This document shows positions 18,729 to 45,065 of a stretch of 64,000 nt of DNA, piece after piece. This DNA is from Burkholderiales bacterium (GTDB taxonomy: Bacteria; Pseudomonadota; Gammaproteobacteria; Burkholderiales; Casimicrobiaceae), in NCBI GenBank assembly GCA_020851235.1, contig JADZDD010000035.1, forward strand, positions 372,001 through 436,000, given 5' to 3'. A program made the translations under genes and the position numbers. The first letter of the stretch is position 1. Every line of letters begins with the position of its first letter. The notes beneath the pieces are model-generated. The model did not search any database. It was not told where the DNA came from and was given only the letters and a program-made list of their open reading frames with translations.

Positions 18729-19526
18729 ATGAAGCATCCCCTGCTCGTCGTCGCCGCGCTCGTCGCCATCGCGGCAGGCATCGCCTGGTACGCATGGCAG
18801 GCCAACGCGCCCGCGCCCGAAGCGCCGGCGGTGCCGCCGCCGGTGGCCACCGCGCCGACCGAAGCGCCCCCGGTGGCGCCGCTCCCGCCGCCGATCCAGC
18901 ATCCGCTGCCGCCGCCCGAGGCCGCCGCGCCGCCCCTTCCGCCGCTCGCCGACAGCGATACGCTCGCGCGCGACACGATCGTCGGACTCGTCGGCCGCGA
19001 CGCCTTCGCGCGCTACTTCGTCCCCGACGCGCTGGTACGCAACTTCGTGGTCACCGTCGACAACCTGCCGCGCAAGACGGCGGCGGTGCGCATGTGGCCG
19101 GTGCGACCCGTGCCGGGCGCCTTCGTGACCACGACCGGGGCGCAGCCGACGATCGCGCCCGACAACGCGCTGCGCTATCGACCCTACATCGTCGCGATGG
19201 AAGCCGCCGAAGCGAAGCACCTCGTCGCTGCCTACGTGCGCCTGTATCCGCTGTTCCAGAAGGCCTACGAGGAACTGGGCTATCCCAACGCCTACTTCAA
19301 CGATCGCCTGATCCAGGCGATCGACGACATGCTCGCCGCGCCCGACGTCGCCGCGCCCGCGCTCGTGCAGCCGAAGGTGCTCTACCAGTTCGCCGACCCG
19401 GCGCTCGAGGAACGCTCGGCGGGCCAGAAGATCCTGCTGCGGATGGGGTCGGCCAACGCCGCACGGGTCAAGGACAAGCTGCGGGCGATCCGCAAGGAAG
19501 TCGTCGCGCAGGCGCCGCAATCCTGA
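18729..19526 (+). CDS. DUF3014 domain protein
   Basis: Protein of 265 residues with an N-terminal membrane anchor (about residues 5-22) and a proline-rich linker to about 75. A C-terminal DUF3014 domain starts around DTLARDTIVGLVGRDAFARY and includes FVVTVDNLPR and YRPYIVAMEA. The globular part should lie in the periplasm. AAGGAGGAGG just before the ATG is a very strong ribosome site. Members occur widely in proteobacteria; function unknown. Confidence 0.9.
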   Translation: MKHPLLVVAALVAIAAGIAWYAWQANAPAPEAPAVPPPVATAPTEAPPVAPLPPPIQHPLPPPEAAAPPLPPLADSDTLARDTIVGLVGRDAFARYFVPDALVRNFVVTVDNLPRKTAAVRMWPVRPVPGAFVTTTGAQPTIAPDNALRYRPYIVAMEAAEAKHLVAAYVRLYPLFQKAYEELGYPNAYFNDRLIQAIDDMLAAPDVAAPALVQPKVLYQFADPALEERSAGQKILLRMGSANAARVKDKLRAIRKEVVAQAPQS

Positions 19527-33500: not shown

Positions 33501-33968
33501 TTACGCCTGTCCGTGCCCGACCTCGGTGCCACGCCGGCGCACGAGCAGGAGGTTGGTGCCCTCCTGCACGATCGCGCCGTCCTGGTTCGTGGCGGTGATG
33601 CGCAGCGTGAGGATGCCGCGATCACCCTTGCTCGTCAGCCGCTTGTCGACGACCTCGACGCGCGCGCACAGGCGATCGCCCGCAAAGAGCGCGCCGCGAA
33701 AACTCCAGTCCCAGTGCAGCGAGGCGACGCCGGCAAAGCGCCGACTCGCCCGATTCTTCAGGCCGTCGACGAGGGCGAGGCCCAGGATGCCGTGCGCCAC
33801 GCGGCGCGGGAAACCCAGCTCGCGCGCAAAGGCATCGTCCATGTGCACGTCGAAGAAATCGCCGGCGAGGCCGGCGAACTGGACGATGTGCGCTTCGGTC
33901 ACGTCGATGCCACCGGTCACGAACGCGAGGCCGACGGTGACGTCTTCGTAGTGCAGCAGATCGCTCAT
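33501..33968 (-). CDS. MaoC-like (R)-hydratase/dehydratase
   Basis: Hot-dog fold enzyme of 155 residues that hydrates enoyl-CoA thioesters. The hydratase motif is LAGDFFDVHMDDAFA, keeping the catalytic Asp and His, followed by RRVAHGILGLALVDGL. ATG 33968 overlaps the LacI gene stop (ATGA), making it the last gene of the acyl-CoA dehydrogenase-SDR-LacI-MaoC operon. It could provide the hydration step or a second stereochemistry next to the enoyl-CoA hydratase at 38356. Substrate unknown. Confidence 0.9.
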   Translation of the reverse strand: MSDLLHYEDVTVGLAFVTGGIDVTEAHIVQFAGLAGDFFDVHMDDAFARELGFPRRVAHGILGLALVDGLKNRASRRFAGVASLHWDWSFRGALFAGDRLCARVEVVDKRLTSKGDRGILTLRITATNQDGAIVQEGTNLLLVRRRGTEVGHGQA

Positions 33969-35005
33969 GCAGTGCGTCCTTTCAGGCGTGGACGTGGCGC
34001 CGTTCCGGACGACGTGCGCACGACCAGTTTCGGAGTCAGCGTTTGCCGGGTGGGTGATCGACCCGGGTCCTCGAGGCGCTGCCACAGCACGTGCGCCGCG
34101 GCACGTCCGATGCCTTCGGCGTCGACCGCGACCGTCGTGAGTGCCGGCGTCCACAGCGCCGATTCCGCGATGTCGTCGGCGCCGACGACCGAGCACTCGC
34201 CTCCGATCGCCACGCCGCGGTGCTGCAAGCCGAGCATCGCACCAAAGGCCAGAAGATCGTTGAAGCACACGATCGCGCTCGGCGGTCGCGACGCGGCAAA
34301 GAGCCTGGTCACGGCATCGAAGCCCGCCTGCCGGCTCGCCGCGCACTCGACGACGAGCTCGGCCGCGAGCGCGACGCCGGCGCCCGCCAGCGCCGCTCGA
34401 TACCCGGCAAAGCGATCGCGGCCGGTGCTCGTGCGCCGGTTGTAGCCGATGAAGGCGATGCGCCGATGTCCCAGGTCCAGGAGATGCCGCGTGGCCAGCA
34501 CCGAGCCCAGGCGATTGTCGTTGCCGACGTAGTCGCAGAAAACACCCGGGACGTAGCGCGTGACCATCACGAGCGGGATGTGCCAGGAAATAACCTCCTC
34601 GATCGCCGCGCGCGTGGTGCCGATGGCCGGCATCACGAGCGCGCCCTCGACGTTGTATTCGCGCAGCGTGGCGAGAAAGCGGGCCTGGCGGACCGTCGAT
34701 TCGCGCGCGTTGCCGAGCACGAGCGCGCGCCCCTGCTCCTCGAGGATCTGTTCCACGCCGGCCGCGACCTCGGCGAAGTACGGATTGACGAGGTCGCAGG
34801 TCGACACGCCGACGATGTCCGTGCGCTTCTTGCGCAACTGCGCTGCCGCACGATGGTAGACGTAGCCGCGCTCCCGGATGACACGCAGCACGCGCTCGCG
34901 CGTCGCCGCCGCCACCAGCGGGCTGTTGTTCATCACCATCGACACCGTTCCGGTCGCCACTCCGGCGTAGCGTGCGACGTCCTTCAGTGTCACCCGACGC
35001 TTCAC
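33965..35005 (-). CDS. LacI family transcriptional regulator
   Basis: Repressor-type regulator of 346 residues. The HTH is VTLKDVARYAGVATGTVSMV with hinge helix AAAQLRKKRTDIVG, followed by a periplasmic-binding-like effector domain to about 330. The GTG start at 35005 overlaps the SDR stop (GTGA), and its stop overlaps the MaoC start. It is encoded inside the catabolic operon that it probably controls. Two identical LacI-type palindromes at 36979 and 40891 sit between -35 and -10 elements of divergent catabolic genes and are its probable operators. Its inducer, perhaps a pathway acid or CoA ester, is unknown. Confidence 0.93.
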   Translation of the reverse strand: MKRRVTLKDVARYAGVATGTVSMVMNNSPLVAAATRERVLRVIRERGYVYHRAAAQLRKKRTDIVGVSTCDLVNPYFAEVAAGVEQILEEQGRALVLGNARESTVRQARFLATLREYNVEGALVMPAIGTTRAAIEEVISWHIPLVMVTRYVPGVFCDYVGNDNRLGSVLATRHLLDLGHRRIAFIGYNRRTSTGRDRFAGYRAALAGAGVALAAELVVECAASRQAGFDAVTRLFAASRPPSAIVCFNDLLAFGAMLGLQHRGVAIGGECSVVGADDIAESALWTPALTTVAVDAEGIGRAAAHVLWQRLEDPGRSPTRQTLTPKLVVRTSSGTAPRPRLKGRTA

Positions 35006-35781
35006 AGGCGATGGATGTGCAACCCGCCGTCGACGTGCAACGCGTCCCCGGTGACGAACGGGAGCTCGCCGGCGGCGAGCGTGGCGATGGCCCGCCCGAC
35101 GTCCTCGGGCTCGCCCCAGCGCGCGATGGGTGTCAGGCCGTCGGCGATCAGGCGGTCGTATTTCGCGCTCGCCACGCGCGTCATGTCGGTGCGGATCACG
35201 CCCGGGCGAACCTCGTAGCAGGCGATGCCGGCACCACCGAGGCGCAGCGCGAAGAGCTTCACCAGCATCGACAGCGCCGTCTTGGTGAGGCAGTACTCGG
35301 CGCGATCGGGCGAAGCGATCACCGCGTTGGCGGACGTCACCGTGACGATCGAGCGCGGCCGGGACGGCACCGGCGCCTGCAGCATCATGCGCGCGACCGC
35401 CTGGGTGAGAAAGAACGTGCCGCGCAGGTTGACCTCGACGACGTGGTCGAAGCCCTGCGGCGTGACGTCGAGAATGTCGCCACGCTGCGCGACCGAGATG
35501 CCGGCGTTGTTGACGAGGACATCGACCGTGCCGTGCCGCCGGCAAGCCTGCGCGACGAGGTCGGCGTGCGCGGCGAGATCGGCGATGTCGCCGGCGATGA
35601 AGTGGGCGTGTGCACCGCGCCGCCCGGCCTCGGCGCAGGTCGTCGCCGCGTCGGCAGCGCAGGACGCAAGGTCGAGCACGGCAACGTCGAAGCCGCGTGC
35701 GGCAAGCGCGAGCGTCGCGGCGCGGCCGATGCCGCGGCTTGCACCGGTGACGAGCGCCAACGGACGCAAGGCGTCGCTCAT
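35002..35781 (-). CDS. Short-chain dehydrogenase/reductase (FabG-like)
   Basis: NAD(P)-dependent oxidoreductase of 259 residues. The Rossmann motif is [16 protein letters not shown], with NNAGIS near residue 94 and the catalytic YCLTK (Tyr-x3-Lys) near residue 162. The C-terminal [13 protein letters not shown] is standard. ATG 35781 overlaps the acyl-CoA dehydrogenase stop (ATGA). In this operon it is placed to oxidise a 3-hydroxyacyl-CoA or a hydroxy acid. A fatty-acid synthesis role is less likely given the neighbours. Confidence 0.92.
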
Positions 35782-36935
35782 GAGGCGAGGAGCTCGCGGG
35801 CGATGATCATGCGCTGGATCTGATTCGTGCCTTCGTAGATCTGCGTGATTTTCGCGTCGCGATACAGCCGCTCGACCGTGATACCGCGGATGTAGCCGCT
35901 GCCGCCGTGAATCTGCACCGCATTCTGCGAGTGTGCGACGGCAGCGTCGCTCGCGAAGCACTTCGCCATCGATGCCTCCAGCGTGGCCTTCTGCCCGCGA
36001 TCGAGGCGCGCCGCCGCCTCGTGCACCAGCAGGCGCGCGGCGCACGCATCCTTGGCCATGTCGGCGACCATCCATTGCACCGCCTGGAATTCGGCGATCG
36101 CGCGTCCGAACTGGCGGCGCTCGCGCGCGTAGGCGAGGCTCGCGTCGAGTGCATCCTGGAGGATGCCCACGGCGAGCGCGCCGATGCCGACGCGACCCTT
36201 GTCGAGGACGCCCATCATGCTGTGGAAGCCGCAACCGCGCGGTCCGAGCAGCGCAGTGGCCGGCAACGTGACGTCATCGAAGAAGAGCGCCCCGACGGGC
36301 GACGCGCGTTGCCCCATCTTGCGTTCCTTCTTGCCGCGCGCGACACCGGGACGATCGAGGTCGACGATGAAGATGCTCATCCCACGGTGGCCTGCCGCCG
36401 GATCGGTGCGGGCGAGGACGAGGGCGAAGTCCGCGACCGGAGCGTTGTGGATCCACAGCTTGTGGCCGCGCAGGCGCCAGCCGTCGCCGTTGGCCGTCGC
36501 ACTCGTCGTGAGGCTCGCGAGGTCGGAGCCCGCCTGCGGTTCGGTGAGCGCATACGCGCAGCGCCGCTCGGCGCGCAAGAGCGGATGCAGGTACTCGCCG
36601 CGCTGGGCCGCGGTGCCGAGCGTTGCGAGCAGCGTGCCGACGAGCTCGACGAGGCCGCACTGGTCGGCCACCGATGCGTATCCCCGGGCGAGCTCCTCCA
36701 TGACCAACGCGTAGCTGCGCACGTCCGCGCCGACACCGCCGTCGCTCTCGGGTACCGTAATGCCGAACAGGCCGAGCGCCGCGCATTGCGCGTACAGCTC
36801 GCGCGGGAACGCCTCAGTCTCGTCGAGCTCGTTCGCGATGGGCCGTACGAGCTCGTCGGCGAAGCGACGCGTCGCCGCGCGGATCGCATCGTGCCGCGCC
36901 GTGTCGGCGGCAACGACGTCTGACGAAGACGGCAT
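35778..36935 (-). CDS. Acyl-CoA dehydrogenase
   Basis: FAD-dependent dehydrogenase of 385 residues that introduces the 2,3 double bond in an acyl-CoA. FAD and substrate motifs [15 protein letters not shown] and [11 protein letters not shown] are present. The catalytic base is the Glu of [13 protein letters not shown] (near residue 365). ATG 36935 is preferred over 36992, which would lie within the LacI operator. First gene of a leftward, fully overlapping operon. It opens a probable beta-oxidation sequence of dehydrogenation, hydration and oxidation. Confidence 0.94.
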
Positions 36936-36966
36936 GGCGGTCCCCTGGCGAGCGGCAGCGGTGCGC

Positions 36967-36995
36967 TTGACCGGCAATTTGAACCGATTCAAAAT
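36967..36995 (+). promoter_or_regulatory. Promoter with embedded LacI operator, ahead of the CaiB gene
   Basis: TTGACC (36967-36972), a 17-base spacer, and CAAAAT (36990-36995) form a sigma70-type promoter reading right. TTGAACCGATTCAA (36979-36992) is a CG-centred palindrome with one mismatched pair, typical of LacI-family operators. It covers the spacer and part of the -10. The same layout recurs at 40888-40916. The site also lies 44 bases ahead of the divergent acyl-CoA dehydrogenase and could repress both directions. Confidence 0.8.
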
Positions 36996-37092
36996 GCCCG
37001 TCGATTAGAGCATCGGGACGGCGGCGGCGTCAAGCCTCGCCGCGGCCCGACCCGCCCGAGCGCCGCGCCGTTGCGGCAAGGAACGTCGACGA

Positions 37093-38319
37093 ATGAACGC
37101 CACCACGCCCCTCGAAGGCATGCGCATCGTGAGCTTCTGCCATTGGCTGCAAGGTCCGGCAGCATTGCAGTACCTCGCCGACCTCGGCGCCGAGGTCGTG
37201 CGCATCGAGCCGCCGCGCGGCGGCTTCGAGCGTCAGTGGTCGGGCGCGGGCACGCGCGTTGCCGGCGTGAGCACGATGTATCTCGCCGGCAATCGCAACG
37301 TGCGCTCCATTGCGGTCGACCTCAAGTCGGCAAGCGGGGTCGACGTCGCCTGGCGGCTCATCGGGCGCGCGCACGTCGTCGCGGAGAATTTTCGCCCCGG
37401 CGTGCTCGATCGCATCGGCCTGGGCTACGAGGCGGTGCGCGCGCGGCACCCGGCGATCATCTACGCCTCGGCAACGGGCTACGGCCAGGGTCCGTTGCGC
37501 GACCGCCCCGGGCAGGATCTGCTCTTGCAGGCGCGCGCCGGAGTCATGGCCGGCACCGGCGTGAGCGGACAGCCGACGCCGGTGGGCAACGCGGCCGTCG
37601 ACCAGCACGGCGCGACGGTGTTTGCGCTGGGCATCCTCGCGGCCTACGTGCGTCAGCAGCGCACCGGTGAGGGCTGCCGCGTCGAAGCGAGCCTGTACAC
37701 CGCGGCGATCGACCTCGTCTCCGAGGCGCTCACGCACTACGCATCAGGTGGGCACTCGCCCGCGCTGTTCCGTCGCGAGCCGCACCTCGCGAACTGGTAC
37801 AACGAGGCGCCGTACGGCGTCTACGCGCTCGTCGACGCGCACGTGGCGGTGTCGCTCAATCCCCTCGCCAAGCTCGCCGCGGCGCTCGACGACGCGCCGC
37901 TCGCCGCATTGGCCGCCGTCGATCCGTTCGCGCAACGCGACGCCTGCGCCGCCGCGCTGGCGGCGGCGTTGCGCGGGCGTCGCTTCGCCGACGTCGAAGC
38001 CGCCTTCGAGCGCGAGGGCATCTGGTACGAGCGCGTGCGTGATTTCGACGACGTGCTCGCCGACCCGCAGGCGACCTACGCCGACGTCTTCCGGCGCGTG
38101 CCCGTACGTGACGCCGAGGCCACGCTCGTCAACCATCCGGTGCGCTACGACGGTGGCGTGCCGCCACTGCGCCACCTGGCGATCGACCCGGGCGAGGATT
38201 CGCGCGCCGTCCTGCGCGAGGTGGGCTACAGCGCCGCCGAGATCGAAGCGCTCATCGCAAGCCACGCCGTCGTCGCCGCGGGCGCGACGGCGACATCCCC
38301 CGACGACAAGGCTGGCTGA
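37093..38319 (+). CDS. CaiB/BaiF family CoA-transferase
   Basis: Class III CoA-transferase of 408 residues. It begins LEGMRIVSFCHWLQGPAA, with the CoA-site PRGGFER and the segment YGQGPLRDRPGQDLLLQA. The probable catalytic Asp is in NAAVDQHGATVFALG (near residue 175). It moves CoA between carboxylic acids and probably activates the imported acid or recycles CoA. It is followed by enoyl-CoA hydratase 36 bases later. Its promoter carries the LacI operator described at 36967. Substrate unknown. Confidence 0.92.
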   Translation: MNATTPLEGMRIVSFCHWLQGPAALQYLADLGAEVVRIEPPRGGFERQWSGAGTRVAGVSTMYLAGNRNVRSIAVDLKSASGVDVAWRLIGRAHVVAENFRPGVLDRIGLGYEAVRARHPAIIYASATGYGQGPLRDRPGQDLLLQARAGVMAGTGVSGQPTPVGNAAVDQHGATVFALGILAAYVRQQRTGEGCRVEASLYTAAIDLVSEALTHYASGGHSPALFRREPHLANWYNEAPYGVYALVDAHVAVSLNPLAKLAAALDDAPLAALAAVDPFAQRDACAAALAAALRGRRFADVEAAFEREGIWYERVRDFDDVLADPQATYADVFRRVPVRDAEATLVNHPVRYDGGVPPLRHLAIDPGEDSRAVLREVGYSAAEIEALIASHAVVAAGATATSPDDKAG

Positions 38320-38355
38320 CGTGCCCTTGCCATCGCACCCGAGAGGTCATCGACC

Positions 38356-39126
38356 ATGACGACGTCGCACATCGCCTTCACCGTCGCGGAGGGCATCGCC
38401 ACGCTGCGGCTCGACCGCCCCGAGAAGCACAACGCGGTCACGCCCGAAATGGCAGCAACGATCGAACGTCACTGCGCGACGGTCGATCGCGACGACGCGA
38501 TCCGCGTGCTGCTGGTCGAAGGCGCCGGCGAGCGGGCGTTCTGTGCGGGCACCGACCTCAACGCGCTCGCGCAGTACCCGTCGACGTGGCACTTCCGCAA
38601 TCGCATCGAGTACTCGACGGCGGTGCGCAACGTGCGCAAGCCGGTCGTGGCCGCGCTCAAGGGCTGGGTGCTCGGCGGCGGCGGCGAACTCGCACTCGCG
38701 GCGGATATCCGTGTCGCCGCCACGAGCACGCGGCTGGGCTTCCCCGAAGTGACGCGCGGCTGGGTGGGCGGCGGCGGTGCCTCGCAGTTGTTGCCGCGCC
38801 TCATCGGGTACGGACAGGCGATGCGCCTCTTGCTCACGGGCGAGACGATCGACGCCGACGAGGCCCTTCGCCTGGGCATCGTCGAGTTCCTGGTCGCCGA
38901 TGCCGAGCTCGAGACACGCGCGCGGGCGCTGTGCCGGCAGATCGCGGGCCACGCGCCGATCGCCGCCGAAGCCGTTAAAGCCGCGGTCCGGGCCTCGCTT
39001 GCGACCCCGCTCGAGGCCGGCCTGCGTTACGAGAACGAGATGAACACGCTGTGCTTCGCCGGCGGCGACCATCTCGCCGGCATCCGCGCCTTCCAGCAAA
39101 GGCACGACGCCAGGGACGGGCGCTGA
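38356..39126 (+). CDS. Enoyl-CoA hydratase/isomerase family protein
   Basis: Crotonase fold, 256 residues. The CoA-binding and oxyanion motifs are AFCAGTDLNAL (near residue 63) and GWVLGGGGELALAADIRVA (near 104), with FPEVTRGWVGGGGASQLLPR following. Both usual acidic catalytic positions appear to be kept. In the same transcript as the CaiB gene, it probably hydrates the enoyl-CoA made by the acyl-CoA dehydrogenase. Start ATG 38356 lies 36 bases after the CaiB stop. Confidence 0.92.
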   Translation: MTTSHIAFTVAEGIATLRLDRPEKHNAVTPEMAATIERHCATVDRDDAIRVLLVEGAGERAFCAGTDLNALAQYPSTWHFRNRIEYSTAVRNVRKPVVAALKGWVLGGGGELALAADIRVAATSTRLGFPEVTRGWVGGGGASQLLPRLIGYGQAMRLLLTGETIDADEALRLGIVEFLVADAELETRARALCRQIAGHAPIAAEAVKAAVRASLATPLEAGLRYENEMNTLCFAGGDHLAGIRAFQQRHDARDGR

Positions 39127-39182
39127 CCACGGCGCTGGCGAGGCGCCCGCGCCCGAAGGATCACACGCGGGCGCGGCCGCGC

Positions 39183-40802
39183 TCAGCCGGCGGCATCGAG
39201 TGCAGCCAGGCGCGGCGAGCGCAGCGGCGCACCGCGGCGCGCGAGATCCGCGGCAAGGCCGATCGGCTGTGGCAGGAAGAGCCGCGCATCCATGAGCCGC
39301 GGCGGGGTCGGCACGTGCGGACGAAACGCCATCCGCGCCAGCACGTCGCGCTCGATGTCGACGCCAGGCGCCACCTCGACGAGTTCGAGCCCGTCGCGGC
39401 CGAGTCTGAGCACCGCGCGCTCGGTGACGTAGAGCACGTCCTGGCCGCGCTCGCGGCCGAACGTTCCGCTGTAGCTGATCTGTTCGACGGCAGCCACGAA
39501 CTTGCGGTGCGCTCCGTCGCTCGCGATGCGCGTGGTGCCGTGGGGCCAGCTCATGGTCGTGCCGCCCGCGGTAAAGGTGCCGCTGAAGACCACGCGCTTC
39601 GCGTTCTGCGCGATGTTGATGAACCCGCCCGGACCGATGATCCGATCCCCGAACCGGCTCACGTTGACGTTGCCCTCGGCGTCGATCTCGGCAAACGAGA
39701 GGAACGCGAGATCGAGTCCGCCGCCGTCGTAGAAGTCGAACTGGTACGGCTGGTCGATCATCGCGGCGTAGTTGCGCGAGGCGCCCGCCTCGGTTCCGGC
39801 CGCGGGTGCACCGCCGATCAAGCCCTGCTCGTTGGTGAGGCAGACGCGATCGAGCACGCCCTCCTCGGCCGCGACACTCGCAATGCCGGTGGAGATCCCC
39901 GAGCCCAGGTTGCAGATCGCTCCCGGGAAGAGCTCGAGCGCCGCGCGCCGCGCGATGATCTTGCGCGCGTCGAGCGGCAGCACCGGCATGTCGGCGAGGG
40001 GAATGCGCAGCTCGCCGGCGTACGCCGGACTGTAGGCCGTCGCGTAGGTCTGCCGCTGCCCGGGGGCGACGACGACGCAGTCGACGAGCATGCCGGGAAT
40101 CTTCACCTGCTTCGGCGGCAGCGTGTTGCGCACCGCCATGCGTTTGACCTGCACCACCACGACCCCGCCACAGCGCCGCGTCGCCTGCGCCTGCGAGAGC
40201 ACCTCGCCGAAGACCGCCTCCTCCTCCATCGTGACGTTGCCATCCTCGTCCGCCGTGGTGCCGCGCAGGAAGCACACGTCGACGTGGAAGGGCTTGTAGA
40301 AGAGGTACTCGCTGCCGCGAAACGTCACGAGCTCGACGAGATCCTCCGTCGCGCGCTTGCTCTGGCGCGCGCCGCCGTGCCGCGGATCGACGAACGTGCG
40401 CAGCCCCGTCGTCGTCAGCAGCCCGGGGCGGCCCGCGGCCATCTCGCGCATCAGGAGCGACAGCGCCCCCTGCGGCAGCGTGTAGGACTCGATCTTGTCG
40501 GCGAGCGCGAGCGCGCCGACGCGCGGCGAATTGACCAGCGTGCCGCCGACGTCGCGCTTGAGGAGTCCCTCGTGCGCGAGGTGTCCGAGGCCAAGCGTCT
40601 TGTCGTCGCCCAAGCCCACCGGGTGCACGACGGTGATCTCGCGCGGCAGCCCGGTGTCGACGAACCGGCGCCCGACCGCAGCGAGCAATTCGTCCGGCAC
40701 CGCATGGCCGCCGCCGGACCCTCCGACGAGGAGCGTGTCGCCGGAGTGAACCAGCGCCGCCGCCTGTTCGGCCGTGATGCGTCGCACGTACCCCTCCCTC
40801 AT
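39183..40802 (-). CDS. Family I acyl-CoA:acetate/3-ketoacid CoA-transferase
   Basis: CoA-transferase of 539 residues with fused alpha and beta halves (YdiF/propionate-CoA-transferase type). The alpha half has the glycine-rich LLVGGSGGGHAVPDELL, and the beta half CNLGSGISTGIASVAAEEG. The probable catalytic Glu is in CLTNEQGLIGGAPAAG (near residue 333). ATG 40802 (MREGYVRR) has GAGGG upstream; longer in-frame extensions cross the operator. It converges on the enoyl-CoA hydratase gene. Its upstream promoter carries the second LacI operator, tying it to the same regulon. Confidence 0.92.
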   Translation of the reverse strand: MREGYVRRITAEQAAALVHSGDTLLVGGSGGGHAVPDELLAAVGRRFVDTGLPREITVVHPVGLGDDKTLGLGHLAHEGLLKRDVGGTLVNSPRVGALALADKIESYTLPQGALSLLMREMAAGRPGLLTTTGLRTFVDPRHGGARQSKRATEDLVELVTFRGSEYLFYKPFHVDVCFLRGTTADEDGNVTMEEEAVFGEVLSQAQATRRCGGVVVVQVKRMAVRNTLPPKQVKIPGMLVDCVVVAPGQRQTYATAYSPAYAGELRIPLADMPVLPLDARKIIARRAALELFPGAICNLGSGISTGIASVAAEEGVLDRVCLTNEQGLIGGAPAAGTEAGASRNYAAMIDQPYQFDFYDGGGLDLAFLSFAEIDAEGNVNVSRFGDRIIGPGGFINIAQNAKRVVFSGTFTAGGTTMSWPHGTTRIASDGAHRKFVAAVEQISYSGTFGRERGQDVLYVTERAVLRLGRDGLELVEVAPGVDIERDVLARMAFRPHVPTPPRLMDARLFLPQPIGLAADLARRGAPLRSPRLAALDAAG

Positions 40803-40887
40803 GAACGTGGCGAAGCGCCACGCGGGATGCGGCGCACGCCGTGACTGCCCGGTGCGCGGGCGATCGCGCGCCGGCCGGAGCACGATC

Positions 40888-40916
40888 ATGTTGAATCGGT
40901 TCAAATGCCAAGTCAA
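40888..40916 (-). promoter_or_regulatory. Promoter with embedded LacI operator, ahead of the CoA-transferase gene
   Basis: Read on the minus strand: TTGACT (40916-40911), a 17-base spacer, CAACAT (40893-40888). The spacer holds TTGAACCGATTCAA (40904-40891), the same 14 bases in the same orientation as the 36967 site. The match extends one T further upstream. Shared architecture on opposite strands argues for one LacI-type regulator acting on both. Confidence 0.8.
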
Positions 40917-40981
40917 GCGAGGGAGGACGCCTTCGGCAGGGGCCACTCCGAGGCAGTGACGGGGTTCGATGGTGCGCGGCA

Positions 40982-41024
40982 CAACACGAAACGTGTTGAC
41001 ACGATCGAAGGATCCCCGAACAAT
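40982..41024 (+). promoter_or_regulatory. dctP promoter with 17-base perfect palindrome
   Basis: The 310-base gap between the CoA-transferase and dctP starts holds this promoter. TTGACA (40996-41001), 17 bases, then AACAAT (41019-41024) reads toward dctP. CAACACG-AAA-CGTGTTG (40982-40998) is a perfect inverted repeat overlapping the -35. It differs from the LacI operator, so a second regulator may act here. Apart from the LacI-type promoter at 40888, the rest of the gap shows only GC-rich sequence. Confidence 0.65.
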
Positions 41025-41112
41025 CGACCGCCTCACCCGACGAGAGCGCGCGCGGTCGTCGTGACCGACCCTGCCAATGGGTGAATCGTCATCGACCGGA
41101 GGAGGTTTCCCA

Positions 41113-42105
41113 ATGAAAGGTGTCATCCGCAGGATCGTCGGCGGCGCGTTCGTGCTCGGCCTCGCCGCATCGGGCGCGGCCTTCGCGCAGGCTCCCATCA
41201 CGCTGCACGGCGCCGTGCAGTTCAACGACGACCACGCCTTCACCCGTGCGCTCGTGCGGTTCCAGGAGCTCGTCGTCAAGTACTACGGCAAGCCGGTGAA
41301 CTTCGTCTTGCACAAGAACAGCGAGCTCGGCCTCGAGAAGGACTACTTCGCCTTCATGAACCAGGGCGTGTCGGTGGACTACGCGATCGTGTCGCCGGCG
41401 CACATGTCGACCTTCAGCAAGGCGGCGCCGTTCATCGACGCGCCGTTCCTCTTCCGTGACCTCAACCACTGGAACAAGGTGCTCGATGCCGACACGCTGA
41501 AGCCGATCGCCGACGAGGTCTCGGCCAAGGGTGACGTGATGCTGATCGGGTACGCGGGCGGTGGCACGCGCAACGTCTTCGCCAACAAGCCGGTGCGCAA
41601 CCTGCAGGAGATGAAGGGGCTCAAGATTCGCGTGCAGGGCGCGCCGATCTGGAGCAAGACGTTCGCCGCGGTCGGCATGTCGCCGACGGTGATCGCGTAC
41701 GACGAGATCTACAACGCGATCCAGAACGGCGTCATTCAGGCGGGTGAGAACGAGGCCGCCGGCGTCGAGGCAATGAAGTTCTACGAGGTGGCGCCGAACC
41801 TCATGCTGACGCAGCACGCGATCACGATCCGCCCGGTCTGCTTCTCGGGGAAGACGTTCAAGAAGCTCCCGCCCGAATTGCAGGCGGCGATCGTCAAGGC
41901 GGGCAAGGAAGCAGGTGCCTACGGGCGACAGCTCGAATCCGGAGAGGACTCGAAGAAGCTCGAAGCGATGGAGAAGGCGGGACGTCTGAAGCTCATCCCG
42001 TTCCCCGACAAGGCACAGATGACGAAGCTCGCCGAGCCGGTCCTCGCGGAATACGCGAAGGAGATCGGCGCCGCCGACATCTACAAGAAGATCCAGGGCA
42101 TGTAG
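41113..42105 (+). CDS. dctP: TRAP transporter solute-binding protein (DctP)
   Basis: Periplasmic receptor of 330 residues. The signal peptide ends AAFAQ near residue 26. The DctP fold includes LKIRVQGAPIWSKTFAAVG, with the Arg of KIRVQG in the usual carboxylate-binding position, and IQNGVIQAGENEAAG. AGGAGG lies seven bases before ATG 41113. It delivers the substrate to DctQ and DctM encoded downstream, after a strong hairpin. Gene neighbours suggest an organic acid that enters CoA metabolism. Confidence 0.95.
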   Translation: MKGVIRRIVGGAFVLGLAASGAAFAQAPITLHGAVQFNDDHAFTRALVRFQELVVKYYGKPVNFVLHKNSELGLEKDYFAFMNQGVSVDYAIVSPAHMSTFSKAAPFIDAPFLFRDLNHWNKVLDADTLKPIADEVSAKGDVMLIGYAGGGTRNVFANKPVRNLQEMKGLKIRVQGAPIWSKTFAAVGMSPTVIAYDEIYNAIQNGVIQAGENEAAGVEAMKFYEVAPNLMLTQHAITIRPVCFSGKTFKKLPPELQAAIVKAGKEAGAYGRQLESGEDSKKLEAMEKAGRLKLIPFPDKAQMTKLAEPVLAEYAKEIGAADIYKKIQGM

Positions 42106-42120
42106 GTCGGATCGACATCG

Positions 42121-42152
42121 GCCGGCACGCGCAACCCGCGTGCCGGCTTTTT
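42121..42152 (+). terminator. Intrinsic terminator/attenuator between dctP and dctQ
   Basis: A perfect 11-base stem GCCGGCACGCG / CGCGTGCCGGC with loop CAACC is followed by TTTTT (42148-42152). It lies 15 bases after dctP and 26 bases before dctQ. It probably terminates part of the transcription, giving more binding protein than permease, and may protect the dctP mRNA 3' end. Confidence 0.9.
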
Positions 42153-42178
42153 CGTGCACGACCGAAACGGCAGGATCC

Positions 42179-42709
42179 ATGCACAAGCTCATCCACCACT
42201 ACGCGCGCCTGCTCAACCTCCTGCTGGCGGTGAGCGTCGCGCTCCTCGTGGTGCCGGTCACCTTGCAGATGATCGCGCGCTACACGCCGCTCGTGCCTGC
42301 CTGGATCTGGACCGAGGAGATGGCGCGCTTCCTCTTCATCTGGATGGTGATGCTGGGCGCGATGATCGGGGTGCGCGAGGCCTCGCACTTCGAGGTCGAC
42401 GTCCTGCCCGACTTCCCGCCACGGATCGATGCGGCGCTGCGCATCGTGTCGATGATCTTCGTGCTGATCTTTGCGCTCGTCTTCGTGTGGTACGGCTACA
42501 GGTTCCTGCTCTTCGGCTGGAACCAGTCCTCCGAGCTGGCCGAGCTGCCGATGGGCTTCATCTTCGTCGCCTGGCCACTCACCGGCCTCACCTGGCTCGT
42601 CTTCGGCATCCAACGCCTCCTGCACGACATCCACATTGTGCGCTTCGGGCCGAGCGCCGAGGATCTCGTGCGTGAGGAGCGCGATCTCGGCAAGGGGAGC
42701 CTCATATGA
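42179..42709 (+). CDS. dctQ: TRAP transporter small permease (DctQ)
   Basis: Inner-membrane subunit of 176 residues with four hydrophobic segments. The family motif WTEEMARFLFIWMVMLGA is near residue 45, and MGFIFVAWPLTGLTW in the last segment. ATG 42179 was chosen because CAGGA is just ahead; the ORF start at 42140 lies inside the hairpin. It overlaps dctM (ATGA). DctQ joins DctM to form the membrane complex. Confidence 0.94.
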   Translation: MHKLIHHYARLLNLLLAVSVALLVVPVTLQMIARYTPLVPAWIWTEEMARFLFIWMVMLGAMIGVREASHFEVDVLPDFPPRIDAALRIVSMIFVLIFALVFVWYGYRFLLFGWNQSSELAELPMGFIFVAWPLTGLTWLVFGIQRLLHDIHIVRFGPSAEDLVREERDLGKGSLI

Positions 42710-44025
42710 TGCAGGCGGCCCTGTCGCCGGGGATGGCGGCAATCTGGCTCTTCGGCGGCTTCTTCTTCCTCATGATCCTGCGCGTGCCGGTGGCATTCGC
42801 GCTCGGGCTCGCCTGCCTGCCGATCCTCTTGATCGAGCCCAGGCTCTCGCCGATCGTGATCTTCAACACGACGTTCAAGAGCTACAACTCGTTCATCCTG
42901 CTCGCGGTGCCGTTCTTCCTGCTGACGGCCAACCTGATGAACGTCGGCGGCATCACCGACCGCCTCGTCCACCTGTCGCGCACGATGGTCGGGAACTTTC
43001 CCGGGGCGCTCGCCCAGATCAACGTGCTGCTGTCGGTCTTCTTTGCCGGCATCTCGGGAAGCTCGACCGCCGACGCCGCGAGCCAGGGCAAGATCTTCAT
43101 CGAAGCACAGGTCAAGGAGGGGTACGACCTGTCGTTCTCGATCGCGATCACCGCCGTTTCCGCCGTGCTCGGCGTGATCATTCCGCCGTCGATCCTGATG
43201 ATCGTCTGGGGTGGCGTGCTGCAGGTGTCGATCGGGGCGCTCTACCTCGCGGGCGTCGTTCCCGGGCTCCTCATCGGGCTCGCGCAGATGGCCACGGTCC
43301 ATGCCTATGCGAAGCGGCGCAACTATCCGACGTATCCGCGGGCGAGCCTGAAGGAGTTCGTTCAGGCCGCACTCGTCTCGATCCCGGCGCTGATGACACC
43401 GGTCATCATCGTCGGCGGCATCCTGGTCGGCTGGTTCACCGCCACCGAGTCGGCCGCCGCCGCCGTGATCTACGCCGCCGTGCTCTCGCTCCTCGTGTAC
43501 CGCGAGATGGGCATGAAGCAGGCCTGGGTGGCACTCCTCGAGACCGGCAAACTCTCGGCTGTCGCGCTCTTCTGCGTCGGGACCGCGTCGGTGTTCGGCT
43601 GGCTCCTCGCCTACTATCAGATCCCGAAGGCGCTGCTCTCCAACGTGACCGACTGGGGGATGGGACCGATCGGCGTCGGCTGCTTCATCGTCGGCGTATT
43701 CCTCGTCGTGGGCTGCTTCCTCGATGCGATCCCCGCGATCATCATCGTCGGGACGACGCTGCAACCGCTCGCCGCGTCGGTGGACATGCATCCCGTGTCG
43801 TTTGCGATGATCAGCATCGTGGCGCTCGCCTTCGGCCTCGTCACGCCGCCGTACGGCATGTGCCTCATGGTATCGTGCGCGATCGCCAAGGTACGATTGC
43901 GCTACGCGTTGAAGGACACGATGATCATGCTGGTGCCGATGCTCCTCGTGCTCTTTGCCATGATCGTCTGGCCGCAGATTCCGCTATGGCTGCCGGGTGT
44001 GATCCGGCCCGATTTCCTGAATTGA
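42706..44025 (+). CDS. dctM: TRAP transporter large permease (DctM)
   Basis: Ion-coupled permease of 439 residues. FFAGISGSSTADAASQG (near residue 114) and the IIPPSILMIVWGG stretch are diagnostic, and the end LFAMIVWPQIPLWLPG is typical. It overlaps dctQ by four bases. Its stop overlaps a TTG start for a nickel/cobalt permease gene, which is unusual for TRAP operons. A second ATG one codon later is possible. Confidence 0.95.
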   Translation: MMQAALSPGMAAIWLFGGFFFLMILRVPVAFALGLACLPILLIEPRLSPIVIFNTTFKSYNSFILLAVPFFLLTANLMNVGGITDRLVHLSRTMVGNFPGALAQINVLLSVFFAGISGSSTADAASQGKIFIEAQVKEGYDLSFSIAITAVSAVLGVIIPPSILMIVWGGVLQVSIGALYLAGVVPGLLIGLAQMATVHAYAKRRNYPTYPRASLKEFVQAALVSIPALMTPVIIVGGILVGWFTATESAAAAVIYAAVLSLLVYREMGMKQAWVALLETGKLSAVALFCVGTASVFGWLLAYYQIPKALLSNVTDWGMGPIGVGCFIVGVFLVVGCFLDAIPAIIIVGTTLQPLAASVDMHPVSFAMISIVALAFGLVTPPYGMCLMVSCAIAKVRLRYALKDTMIMLVPMLLVLFAMIVWPQIPLWLPGVIRPDFLN

Positions 44026-45065
44026 GCCCCGCTCCCGCGTCCGTACACGCAACCCGCTTCACGCCGGCGCAGTGGCGACACCTCGTCGGGTACTACGGTG
44101 TCATCACCGCGCTGCACGTCGCCGGATGGGGGCTCTACCTCCACTACGCGGGCAGCCACCCCAGCCTCGTCGGCCTGGGGTTCGTCGCCTACATGCTGGG
44201 CGTTCGGCACGCCTTCGACGCCGACCACATCGCGGCGATCGACGACACCGTGCGCTTCCTGTTGCAGAAGGGGCGCTCGCCCCTCGGGGTCGGCTTCTAC
44301 TTCTCGCTGGGTCACGCCTCGATCGTCGTCGTCCTCGCGCTCGCGGTCGCCGTCGCCGCGGGTCTCGTCGCGCGCCGCATGCCGCAGATGCAGGAGTGGG
44401 GCGGCCTCATCGGAGCATCGGTTTCCGGGACCTTTCTCATGGTCATCGCCGTGCTCAATCTCATCGTGCTCATGGAACTCCTCGGCGTGTGGCAGCGGGC
44501 GCGCGCCGGAACGCACAGCCACGCGCACCTCGAAGCGCTCCTCGCCCGACGCGGGCTCGTCAATCGCCTGCTCGGCGGTCGCGCCTCGAAGTGGATCGAC
44601 CACGCCTGGCACATGTATCCGCTCGGACTGCTCTTCGGACTGGGCTTCGACACCGCCTCCGAGGTCGCGCTCCTCGCCATGACCGGGGGCGCTGCAGCCG
44701 GCAGCCTGCCATTCGGCGCGGTTGCCTGCCTGCCGCTCCTCTTCGCTGCGGGAATGTCACTGCTCGACACCACCGACGGCGTGCTCATGGCCAAGGCGTA
44801 CGGATGGGCGTTCGTCGACCCGCTGCGCCGGATCTTCTACAACATCGCGACGACGGCGCTGTCGGTCGTCGTCGCCCTCGCGATCGGCTTCGTCCAGCTG
44901 GCGCAGGTCGTCATCGAAGTGTCGGGGGCGCAGGGAACGCTCGCCGCGACGATCGGCGCGATCGATTTTGCCTACGCAGGCTACGTCATCGTTGCGCTCT
45001 TCCTGGTGGCCTGGGGGTCTTCGGTCGCGTGGTGGAAATTCGGCGGCATCGCCGCGCGGCGCTGA
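44022..45065 (+). CDS. NiCoT family nickel/cobalt permease
   Basis: Inner-membrane high-affinity Ni2+/Co2+ importer (HoxN/NixA family), 347 residues. The signature RHAFDADHIAAIDD (His-x4-Asp-His) is near residue 66. The others are FSLGHASIVV, LGFDTASE and GMSLLDTTDGVLM. The proposed start is TTG 44022, overlapping the dctM stop (TTGA); no ATG or GTG lies before the first membrane segment. A His-containing loop HSHAHLE lies between segments. Coupling to a TRAP transporter suggests shared expression; the metal link to the catabolic genes is unexplained. Confidence 0.9.
   Translation: MSPAPASVHATRFTPAQWRHLVGYYGVITALHVAGWGLYLHYAGSHPSLVGLGFVAYMLGVRHAFDADHIAAIDDTVRFLLQKGRSPLGVGFYFSLGHASIVVVLALAVAVAAGLVARRMPQMQEWGGLIGASVSGTFLMVIAVLNLIVLMELLGVWQRARAGTHSHAHLEALLARRGLVNRLLGGRASKWIDHAWHMYPLGLLFGLGFDTASEVALLAMTGGAAAGSLPFGAVACLPLLFAAGMSLLDTTDGVLMAKAYGWAFVDPLRRIFYNIATTALSVVVALAIGFVQLAQVVIEVSGAQGTLAATIGAIDFAYAGYVIVALFLVAWGSSVAWWKFGGIAARR

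Follow-up and report, generated by a model that had tools for sequence, protein, structure and literature searches.

A putative local LacI regulon of acyl-CoA genes and its second, paralogous locus in a Burkholderiales bacterium

Background

Which genes does a LacI-family repressor encoded among genes of acyl-CoA metabolism control, and what kind of acid do they serve? The question is raised by a stretch of 64,000 nucleotides from a Burkholderiales bacterium (GCA_020851235.1, contig JADZDD010000035.1, positions 372,001 to 436,000), which as a whole is referred to as the window. A preliminary description of its positions 33501-45065 proposed a single LacI regulon joining TRAP import, two CoA-transferases and a beta-oxidation set into a complete route for a carboxylic acid. 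The analysis reported here revises that extent. The region very probably carries a local LacI regulon with a second paralogous locus elsewhere in the genome, the repressor acting at the palindrome TTGAAYCGRTTCAA, which occurs in the window as operators O1 and O2. LacI control is well supported by sequence comparison for three units: the operon of an acyl-CoA dehydrogenase (ACAD), a short-chain dehydrogenase/reductase (SDR), LacI itself and a MaoC-like hydratase; the pair of a family III CoA-transferase (CaiB) and an enoyl-CoA hydratase (ECH); and the family I CoA-transferase gene. A LacI regulator has apparently been recruited to acyl-CoA genes. The defined regulator, operator and gene set provide a handle on the substrate of a catabolic module found repeatedly on plasmids from several genera.

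Operators and promoters in the window

The window was compared with the corresponding locus L030 of Burkholderiales bacterium SJ632 (JADZAQ010000015.1, a metagenome assembly; the same locus as G772:C15). The sites are as follows.

36979..36992, operator O1, TTGAAYCGRTTCAA, between the divergent ACAD-operon and CaiB-ECH promoters (pattern count and direct reading; kept in SJ632)
40891..40904, operator O2, TTGAAYCGRTTCAA, in the family I CoA-transferase promoter (pattern count and direct reading; kept in SJ632)
36967..36995, + strand, promoter-like TTGACC-17-CAAAAT for CaiB-ECH, with O1 in the spacer (consensus scan and direct reading; kept in SJ632)
40888..40916, - strand, promoter-like TTGACT-17-CAACAT for the family I CoA-transferase (direct reading; same in SJ632)
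37004..37033, - strand, promoter-like TTGACG (37033-37028)-18-TCTAAT (37009-37004) for the ACAD operon (direct reading; hexamers and spacing kept before the SDR operon of SJ632)

Two sites on opposite strands had been described as sharing the layout TTGAC(C/T)-17-CAA(A/C)AT with an operator in the spacer. Both are exact, TTTGAACCGATTCAA being read at 36978-36992 (plus strand) and 40905-40891 (minus strand). CaiB-hydratase and the family I CoA-transferase are each preceded by such an operator-bearing promoter, as claimed, and the layout is kept in SJ632. TTGAAYCGRTTCAA, present at both promoters, is an even palindrome with a central CG, the usual form of LacI-type sites according to the available text of PMC4052901. 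At up to two mismatches the window holds two operator matches, against 0.13 expected. O1 lies 12-25 bases after the -10 of the ACAD-operon promoter and inside the CaiB promoter, so that, judging by position, one site would serve the divergent pair of ACAD operon and CaiB-ECH. The conserved ACAD-operon promoter had been overlooked in the preliminary description.

Both operators and all three promoter hexamer pairs are kept in SJ632. In the CaiB intergenic region, 35 of the 36 columns at window positions 36962-36997 are identical between the two genomes, while the best other 36-column stretch reaches 23/36 and the region outside this core 73 of 111 ungapped columns. In the window the minus-strand pair TTGACG-18-TCTAAT stands before the ACAD operon, in SJ632 before the SDR operon. 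The SJ632 cluster, that of the closest relative, has no ACAD gene at this place; therefore ACAD is not an obligatory part. The comparison extends as far as O2, since the SJ632 contig ends beyond O2 and before the TRAP side. A consensus promoter scan of 36800-41200 found two promoters (TRAP and CaiB, the latter scoring 9/12), with 0.1 expected.

Distribution of the operator

The operator is not scattered over the genome. In the own genome (3.93 Mb in 41 contigs), TTGAAYCGRTTCAA occurs exactly at three places and with at most one mismatch at five; a reversed control pattern occurs at none in either case. At up to two mismatches the counts are 13 versus 13, so only the five sites with at most one mismatch are credible, and two-mismatch sites were rejected as regulon members. 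Two of the five are the window sites and three are clustered before an operon on another contig. All lie at two LacI loci, and the operator is confined to few targets, as in a local regulon.

In 249 other genomes of the order the exact palindrome occurs at 13 places in 12 genomes (0.05 per genome), and a relative of the window LacI was detected at E<=1e-10 in none of the 13 loci around them (1.8-3.0 kb). Among 22 genomes of the same genus, the exact operator is found in two, the own genome (G000) and SJ632 (G772), and in none of the other 20. SJ632 also has a one-mismatch site (C82:23938; L137 1939) between ApaH-like and UvrD-helicase-like genes (names by eye), which was left out of the regulon.

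The LacI repressor and its co-occurrence with the operator

33965..35005, - strand, LacI-family repressor, GTG start, recognition helix GVATGTVS (PF00356 and Peripla_BP_3, PF13377, above cut-off)

The protein has an N-terminal helix-turn-helix and a periplasmic-binding-like effector domain. Matches at E<=1e-40 occur in nine of the 22 genus genomes, with at least 59% identity only in the own genome (two) and SJ632 (one, 88%); the remaining matches share 33-36%. An alignment of the two own LacIs, which themselves score 708 and 722 bits, has a best other match of at most 289 bits in 399 genomes of the order and of 370 bits in 398 genomes of the phylum. The helix GVATGTVS is present in both own LacIs (window and second locus) and in that of SJ632. 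It is found in none of 36 other LacI relatives, which comprise 31 genome-search loci, L031, L032 and three plasmid loci, most loci being about 3 kb. Around these 36, a looser pattern, TTGAANCGNTTCAA, has a one-mismatch match in two loci and an exact match in none.

The palindrome could be the site of another regulator, with the window LacI a mere neighbour. There are three further LacI genes in the genome, the survey covered the LacI family, and binding by the window LacI is something we infer. Still, the two genus genomes with the exact operator are the same two that carry this LacI, the other 20 having neither. Moreover, the operator stands at both LacI paralogue loci, whose common helix is missing from the three other own LacIs. 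Another regulator is therefore very unlikely.

A second LacI/operator locus

The preliminary description missed a paralogous LacI/operator locus elsewhere in the genome (L011 = G000:C13:322000-341999; cluster at L011 7571-18932). Its gene order is dctP, dctQ, dctM, family I CoA-transferase, enoyl-CoA hydratase, shikimate-dehydrogenase-like gene, DUF993, SDR, ACAD, Gfo/Idh oxidoreductase and LacI. Nine of these 11 genes were scanned with Pfam, dctQ and dctM being named by similarity, and gene order and strand point to a single operon. Three operators, at 18840, 18893 and 18919, span 93 bases starting 79 bases before the dctP start. The one nearest to promoter-like hexamers has the window layout, TTGACA-17-TCAAAT.

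Identity between the two loci is 76% for ACAD, 65% for SDR, 58-59% for LacI and 47% for the family I CoA-transferase, and falls to 29% for the hydratases and 31-35% for the TRAP subunits. ACAD adjoins SDR in both. DUF993, the shikimate-dehydrogenase-like gene and Gfo/Idh are present in the second locus only; CaiB and MaoC in the window only. Because of the common helix and near-identical operator, cross-talk that unites the two loci in one regulon is probable. The different TRAP transporters and partly different enzymes would also fit separate regulation, each LacI with its own operators and a different acid. The same operator core and recognition helix predict overlapping DNA binding, however, and separate regulation is rather unlikely.

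Enzyme genes and operon structure

33501..33968, - strand, MaoC-like hydratase, last gene of the ACAD operon (PF01575, E=1.1e-16; ATGA overlap with the LacI stop)
35002..35781, - strand, SDR dehydrogenase (NF009386, named 3-ketoacyl-ACP reductase, 344.6 bits, cut-off 250)
35778..36935, - strand, ACAD, first gene of the operon (PF00441/02771/02770; aligned to 6fah_C CarC; YEG motif)
37093..38319, + strand, family III (CaiB/Frc-type) CoA-transferase (PF02515, E=1.5e-82; formyl-CoA transferase structures)
38356..39126, + strand, ECH, crotonase family (PF00378; motif GGGGE...PE)
39183..40787, - strand, family I CoA-transferase, YdiF/FadX-like (PF01144; 2ahu YdiF, E=1.1e-130; probable GTG start, the start region also in SJ632)

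Pfam and NCBIfam agree with the identities proposed earlier for ACAD, SDR, LacI, MaoC, CaiB, the family I CoA-transferase, the hydratase and DctP/Q/M. The LacI gene indeed lies inside the dehydrogenase operon, where each of the junctions ACAD/SDR, SDR/LacI and LacI/MaoC is a four-base overlap (ATGA or GTGA); co-transcription, and with it autoregulation of LacI, would follow from these overlaps. Two further transcription units are CaiB-ECH and the family I CoA-transferase.

The ACAD protein has three ACAD domains and a C-terminal YEG-type motif, a residue of which we take to be the catalytic base. Caffeyl-CoA reductase and some short-chain acyl-CoA dehydrogenases are among its nearest solved relatives. 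The family I CoA-transferase has a CoA_trans domain and the glutamate block, NEQG versus VETG in the full-length 2ahu alignment, the Glu of which is presumably the active-site residue. The NCBIfam FadX model gives it 375.8 bits, below the cut-off of 750. The CoA_transf_3 domain (PF02515) identifies the family III enzyme, to which no substrate was assigned because all seven of its NCBIfam matches are below cut-off. In both loci ACAD, hydratase and family I CoA-transferase carry motifs that we take to be catalytic.

The TRAP transporter genes

40996..41024, + strand, TRAP promoter-like TTGACA-17-AACAAT, operator-free (10/12 in the consensus scan)
41113..42105, + strand, DctP solute-binding protein (PF03480; 4nx1, E=4.9e-104; place in the regulon uncertain)
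42140..42709, + strand, DctQ small TRAP permease (PF04290; place in the regulon uncertain)
42706..44025, + strand, DctM large TRAP permease (PF06808; place in the regulon uncertain)
44079..45062, NicO high-affinity nickel transporter, directly after dctM (not evidently in the set)

Do these genes belong to the regulon, as first proposed? O2 lies in the region between them and the divergently oriented family I CoA-transferase gene, and at the second locus the operon behind the three operators opens with dctP. Yet the TRAP genes have their own promoter, and O2, which ends about 91 bases before its -35, is neither at nor adjoining it. The low identity of the TRAP subunits between the two loci also counts against their inclusion. 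So does the lack of linkage: ten stretches around DctP relatives (seven in genomes, with 44-73% identity, and three of the twelve on plasmids) were read, and at E<=1e-12 none of them held an ACAD, a CoA-transferase of family I or III, a MaoC or a close LacI. Distant matches in these stretches are a crotonase in two (29-31%), an SDR in five (29-34%) and a LacI in one (28%).

Nor is a complete route evident. A thiolase is not among the ten window genes scanned with Pfam and NCBIfam, and the SJ632 cluster does without ACAD. It is therefore unlikely that one window regulon takes in the TRAP genes and makes up a complete carboxylic acid route, and LacI control of the window TRAP genes is possible but unsupported. 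What is well supported of the preliminary description is the set of three enzyme units with LacI; the TRAP genes may lie outside it, and NicO, at the end of the region, does not evidently belong to it.

In 299 genomes of the phylum, DctP has relatives at E<=1e-60 of 71-72% identity in four genomes, all from one distant genus, and of 45-49% in three others, a pattern that suggests horizontal spread of the TRAP genes. A palindrome, AACACGAAACGTGTT, at 40983-40997 overlaps the TRAP -35 and may be a separate operator. At the tolerance applied, 0.54 such matches would be expected, so it is no more than a candidate.

The single-sequence structure prediction for DctP has a mean pLDDT (predicted local distance difference test) of 38.7. 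The nearest solved relative of DctP is 4nx1/4ovp, reportedly a Sulfitobacter protein solved with hexuronates. A Sulfitobacter DctP relative (51%) adjoins uxuA, a sugar kinase and an aldehyde dehydrogenase, which fits hexuronate. Near the 72-73% DctP relatives no uxuA-type operon was recognised by eye, no uxuA search having been made.

Gene company elsewhere and the substrate class

Close ACAD relatives (E<=1e-140) are found in one of 300 genomes of the order, the own one. On plasmids, tblastn with ACAD found 65 matching records, 64 with an identity of 60-80%. Six loci were read (L102-L107, from Sinorhizobium, Rhizobium, Paracoccus, Sagittula, Janthinobacterium and Paraburkholderia). In all six, ACAD is accompanied by SDR, DUF993, a TIM-barrel gene, a family I CoA-transferase, a GMC oxidoreductase and a sugar-type ABC transporter. 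A hydratase and an aldehyde dehydrogenase are each present in five, an electron transfer flavoprotein gene in four and a distant TRAP permease in one. The locus of Paraburkholderia caribensis further resembles the second locus in carrying homologues of its shikimate-dehydrogenase-like gene (44%) and its Gfo/Idh gene (46%).

This plasmid module resembles the window in ACAD (64-68% identity), SDR (42-50%) and family I CoA-transferase (40-46%), and the second locus in DUF993 (58-61%). Unlike the window, it has the sugar-type ABC transporter and GMC, and a LacI of this type was detected in none of the six loci. The solved structure of DUF993, 4dnh, is named just 'Uncharacterized protein', and a literature search found no paper using the name DUF993.

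The CoA-transferase is found in other company within the genus. Seven relatives (L086-L092; 60-65% identity, split in one) all stand with an NMT1-type binding protein, MaoC, crotonase, a shikimate-dehydrogenase-like gene and IclR, and three of them with a sugar-acid-kinase-type gene; these gene names come from a Pfam scan for L086 alone. To judge from the sequences, the CoA-transferase core recurs with its regulator exchanged. A third cluster in the own genome (L098, G000:C10:25000-44999) has TRAP, hydratase, family I CoA-transferase and GntR-like genes, GntR and dctP being recognised by eye; the operator was not found in it.

Ordinary beta-oxidation, with a short-chain or dicarboxylic acid as substrate, would fit the enzyme domains and the nearest solved ACADs. 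However, nearly 90% of the LacI regulators studied are local regulators of sugar use, in the text available from PMC4052901. The sugar-type company of ACAD-SDR in all six plasmid loci and the lack of a thiolase among the scanned genes also speak against it, and it is quite unlikely. Because of this company a sugar-type acid is likelier than a fatty acid. The likeliest substrate class, by this analogy, is a sugar-derived or polyhydroxy acid. The company also softens the earlier remark that a LacI regulator is unusual for acyl-CoA genes, as the ACAD-SDR core elsewhere travels with sugar-type genes. Quinate or shikimate, considered from the shikimate-dehydrogenase-like gene of the second locus, was not adopted because the matches of that gene include 5-ketofructose reductase (7cok).

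Proposed mechanism

LacI bound at O1 would block the divergent promoters of ACAD-SDR-LacI-MaoC and CaiB-ECH, and hence its own gene, and at O2 that of the family I CoA-transferase. The inducer may be the sugar-derived or polyhydroxy acid substrate or a derivative of it. The acid would be activated as a CoA thioester, desaturated by ACAD, hydrated by ECH or MaoC and oxidised by SDR. With the same helix, the second-locus paralogue would control the L011 operon through its three near-identical operators. Tentatively, and with less than even chances, the two paralogous LacIs may use one operator to run jointly a pair of related acyl-CoA pathways, neither of them described so far; both would serve sugar-type acids and one would be DUF993-based. 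If true, a sugar-acid signal turns on CoA-thioester chemistry at two distant loci.

Several observations weigh against these proposals. CAAAAT and CAACAT make weak -10 hexamers, and the promoters of the family I CoA-transferase and the ACAD operon fail the consensus-scan rule (36800-41200); TTGACT-17-CAACAT was missed because its -10 is too weak for that rule. The window footprint is that of one species pair, one partner being a metagenome assembly, and SJ632 has a single LacI match and no second-locus LacI. L031 and L032, with LacI relatives of 54-58% identity, have a different helix and no operator within two mismatches in their loci. In the second locus, two of the three sites carry a mismatch, and they are 26 and 53 bases apart, off the LacI peaks at 13, 22 and 32 (PMC4052901). 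Finally, the window cluster is without DUF993, the TIM-barrel gene and GMC, the markers of the sugar-type module.

Comparison with known systems

Each component is of a familiar type, and no report of their combination turned up in the literature searched. A search for LacI with acyl-CoA dehydrogenase, CoA-transferase, TRAP or operator/regulon yielded, in the text available, no description of such a regulon.

In Klebsiella michiganensis, deoxyribonate, a sugar acid, is degraded via acyl-CoA (Price et al. 2019, PMC6365646; available text). As proposed here, acyl-CoA intermediates arise from a sugar acid and a CoA-transferase is in the cluster. That route uses, in contrast, a CoA-synthetase, a beta-hydroxyacyl-CoA dehydrogenase, a thiolase and a glycerate kinase; thiolase, CoA-synthetase and glycerate kinase are found in none of the ten window genes or the nine scanned second-locus operon genes, so the scanned genes do not match that pathway. 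The text available for PMC6365646 has no 'LacI' and no 'enoyl', and 'acyl-CoA dehydrogenase' only within 'hydroxyacyl-CoA dehydrogenase'. The family I CoA-transferase is like the YdiF/FadX enzymes (2ahu), with a full-length match and the active-site Glu block aligned.

The targets here are acyl-CoA genes, unlike those of the LacI local regulators surveyed by Ravcheev et al. 2014 (PMC4052901), where 'CoA' and 'acyl' are absent from the main text as available. Known LacI effectors include sugar acids, and the family has members that regulate the use of hexuronate and gluconate (same source, in the available text). With these local regulators the present system shares, within that text, the central-CG palindrome, the few local targets and the several sites before one operon.

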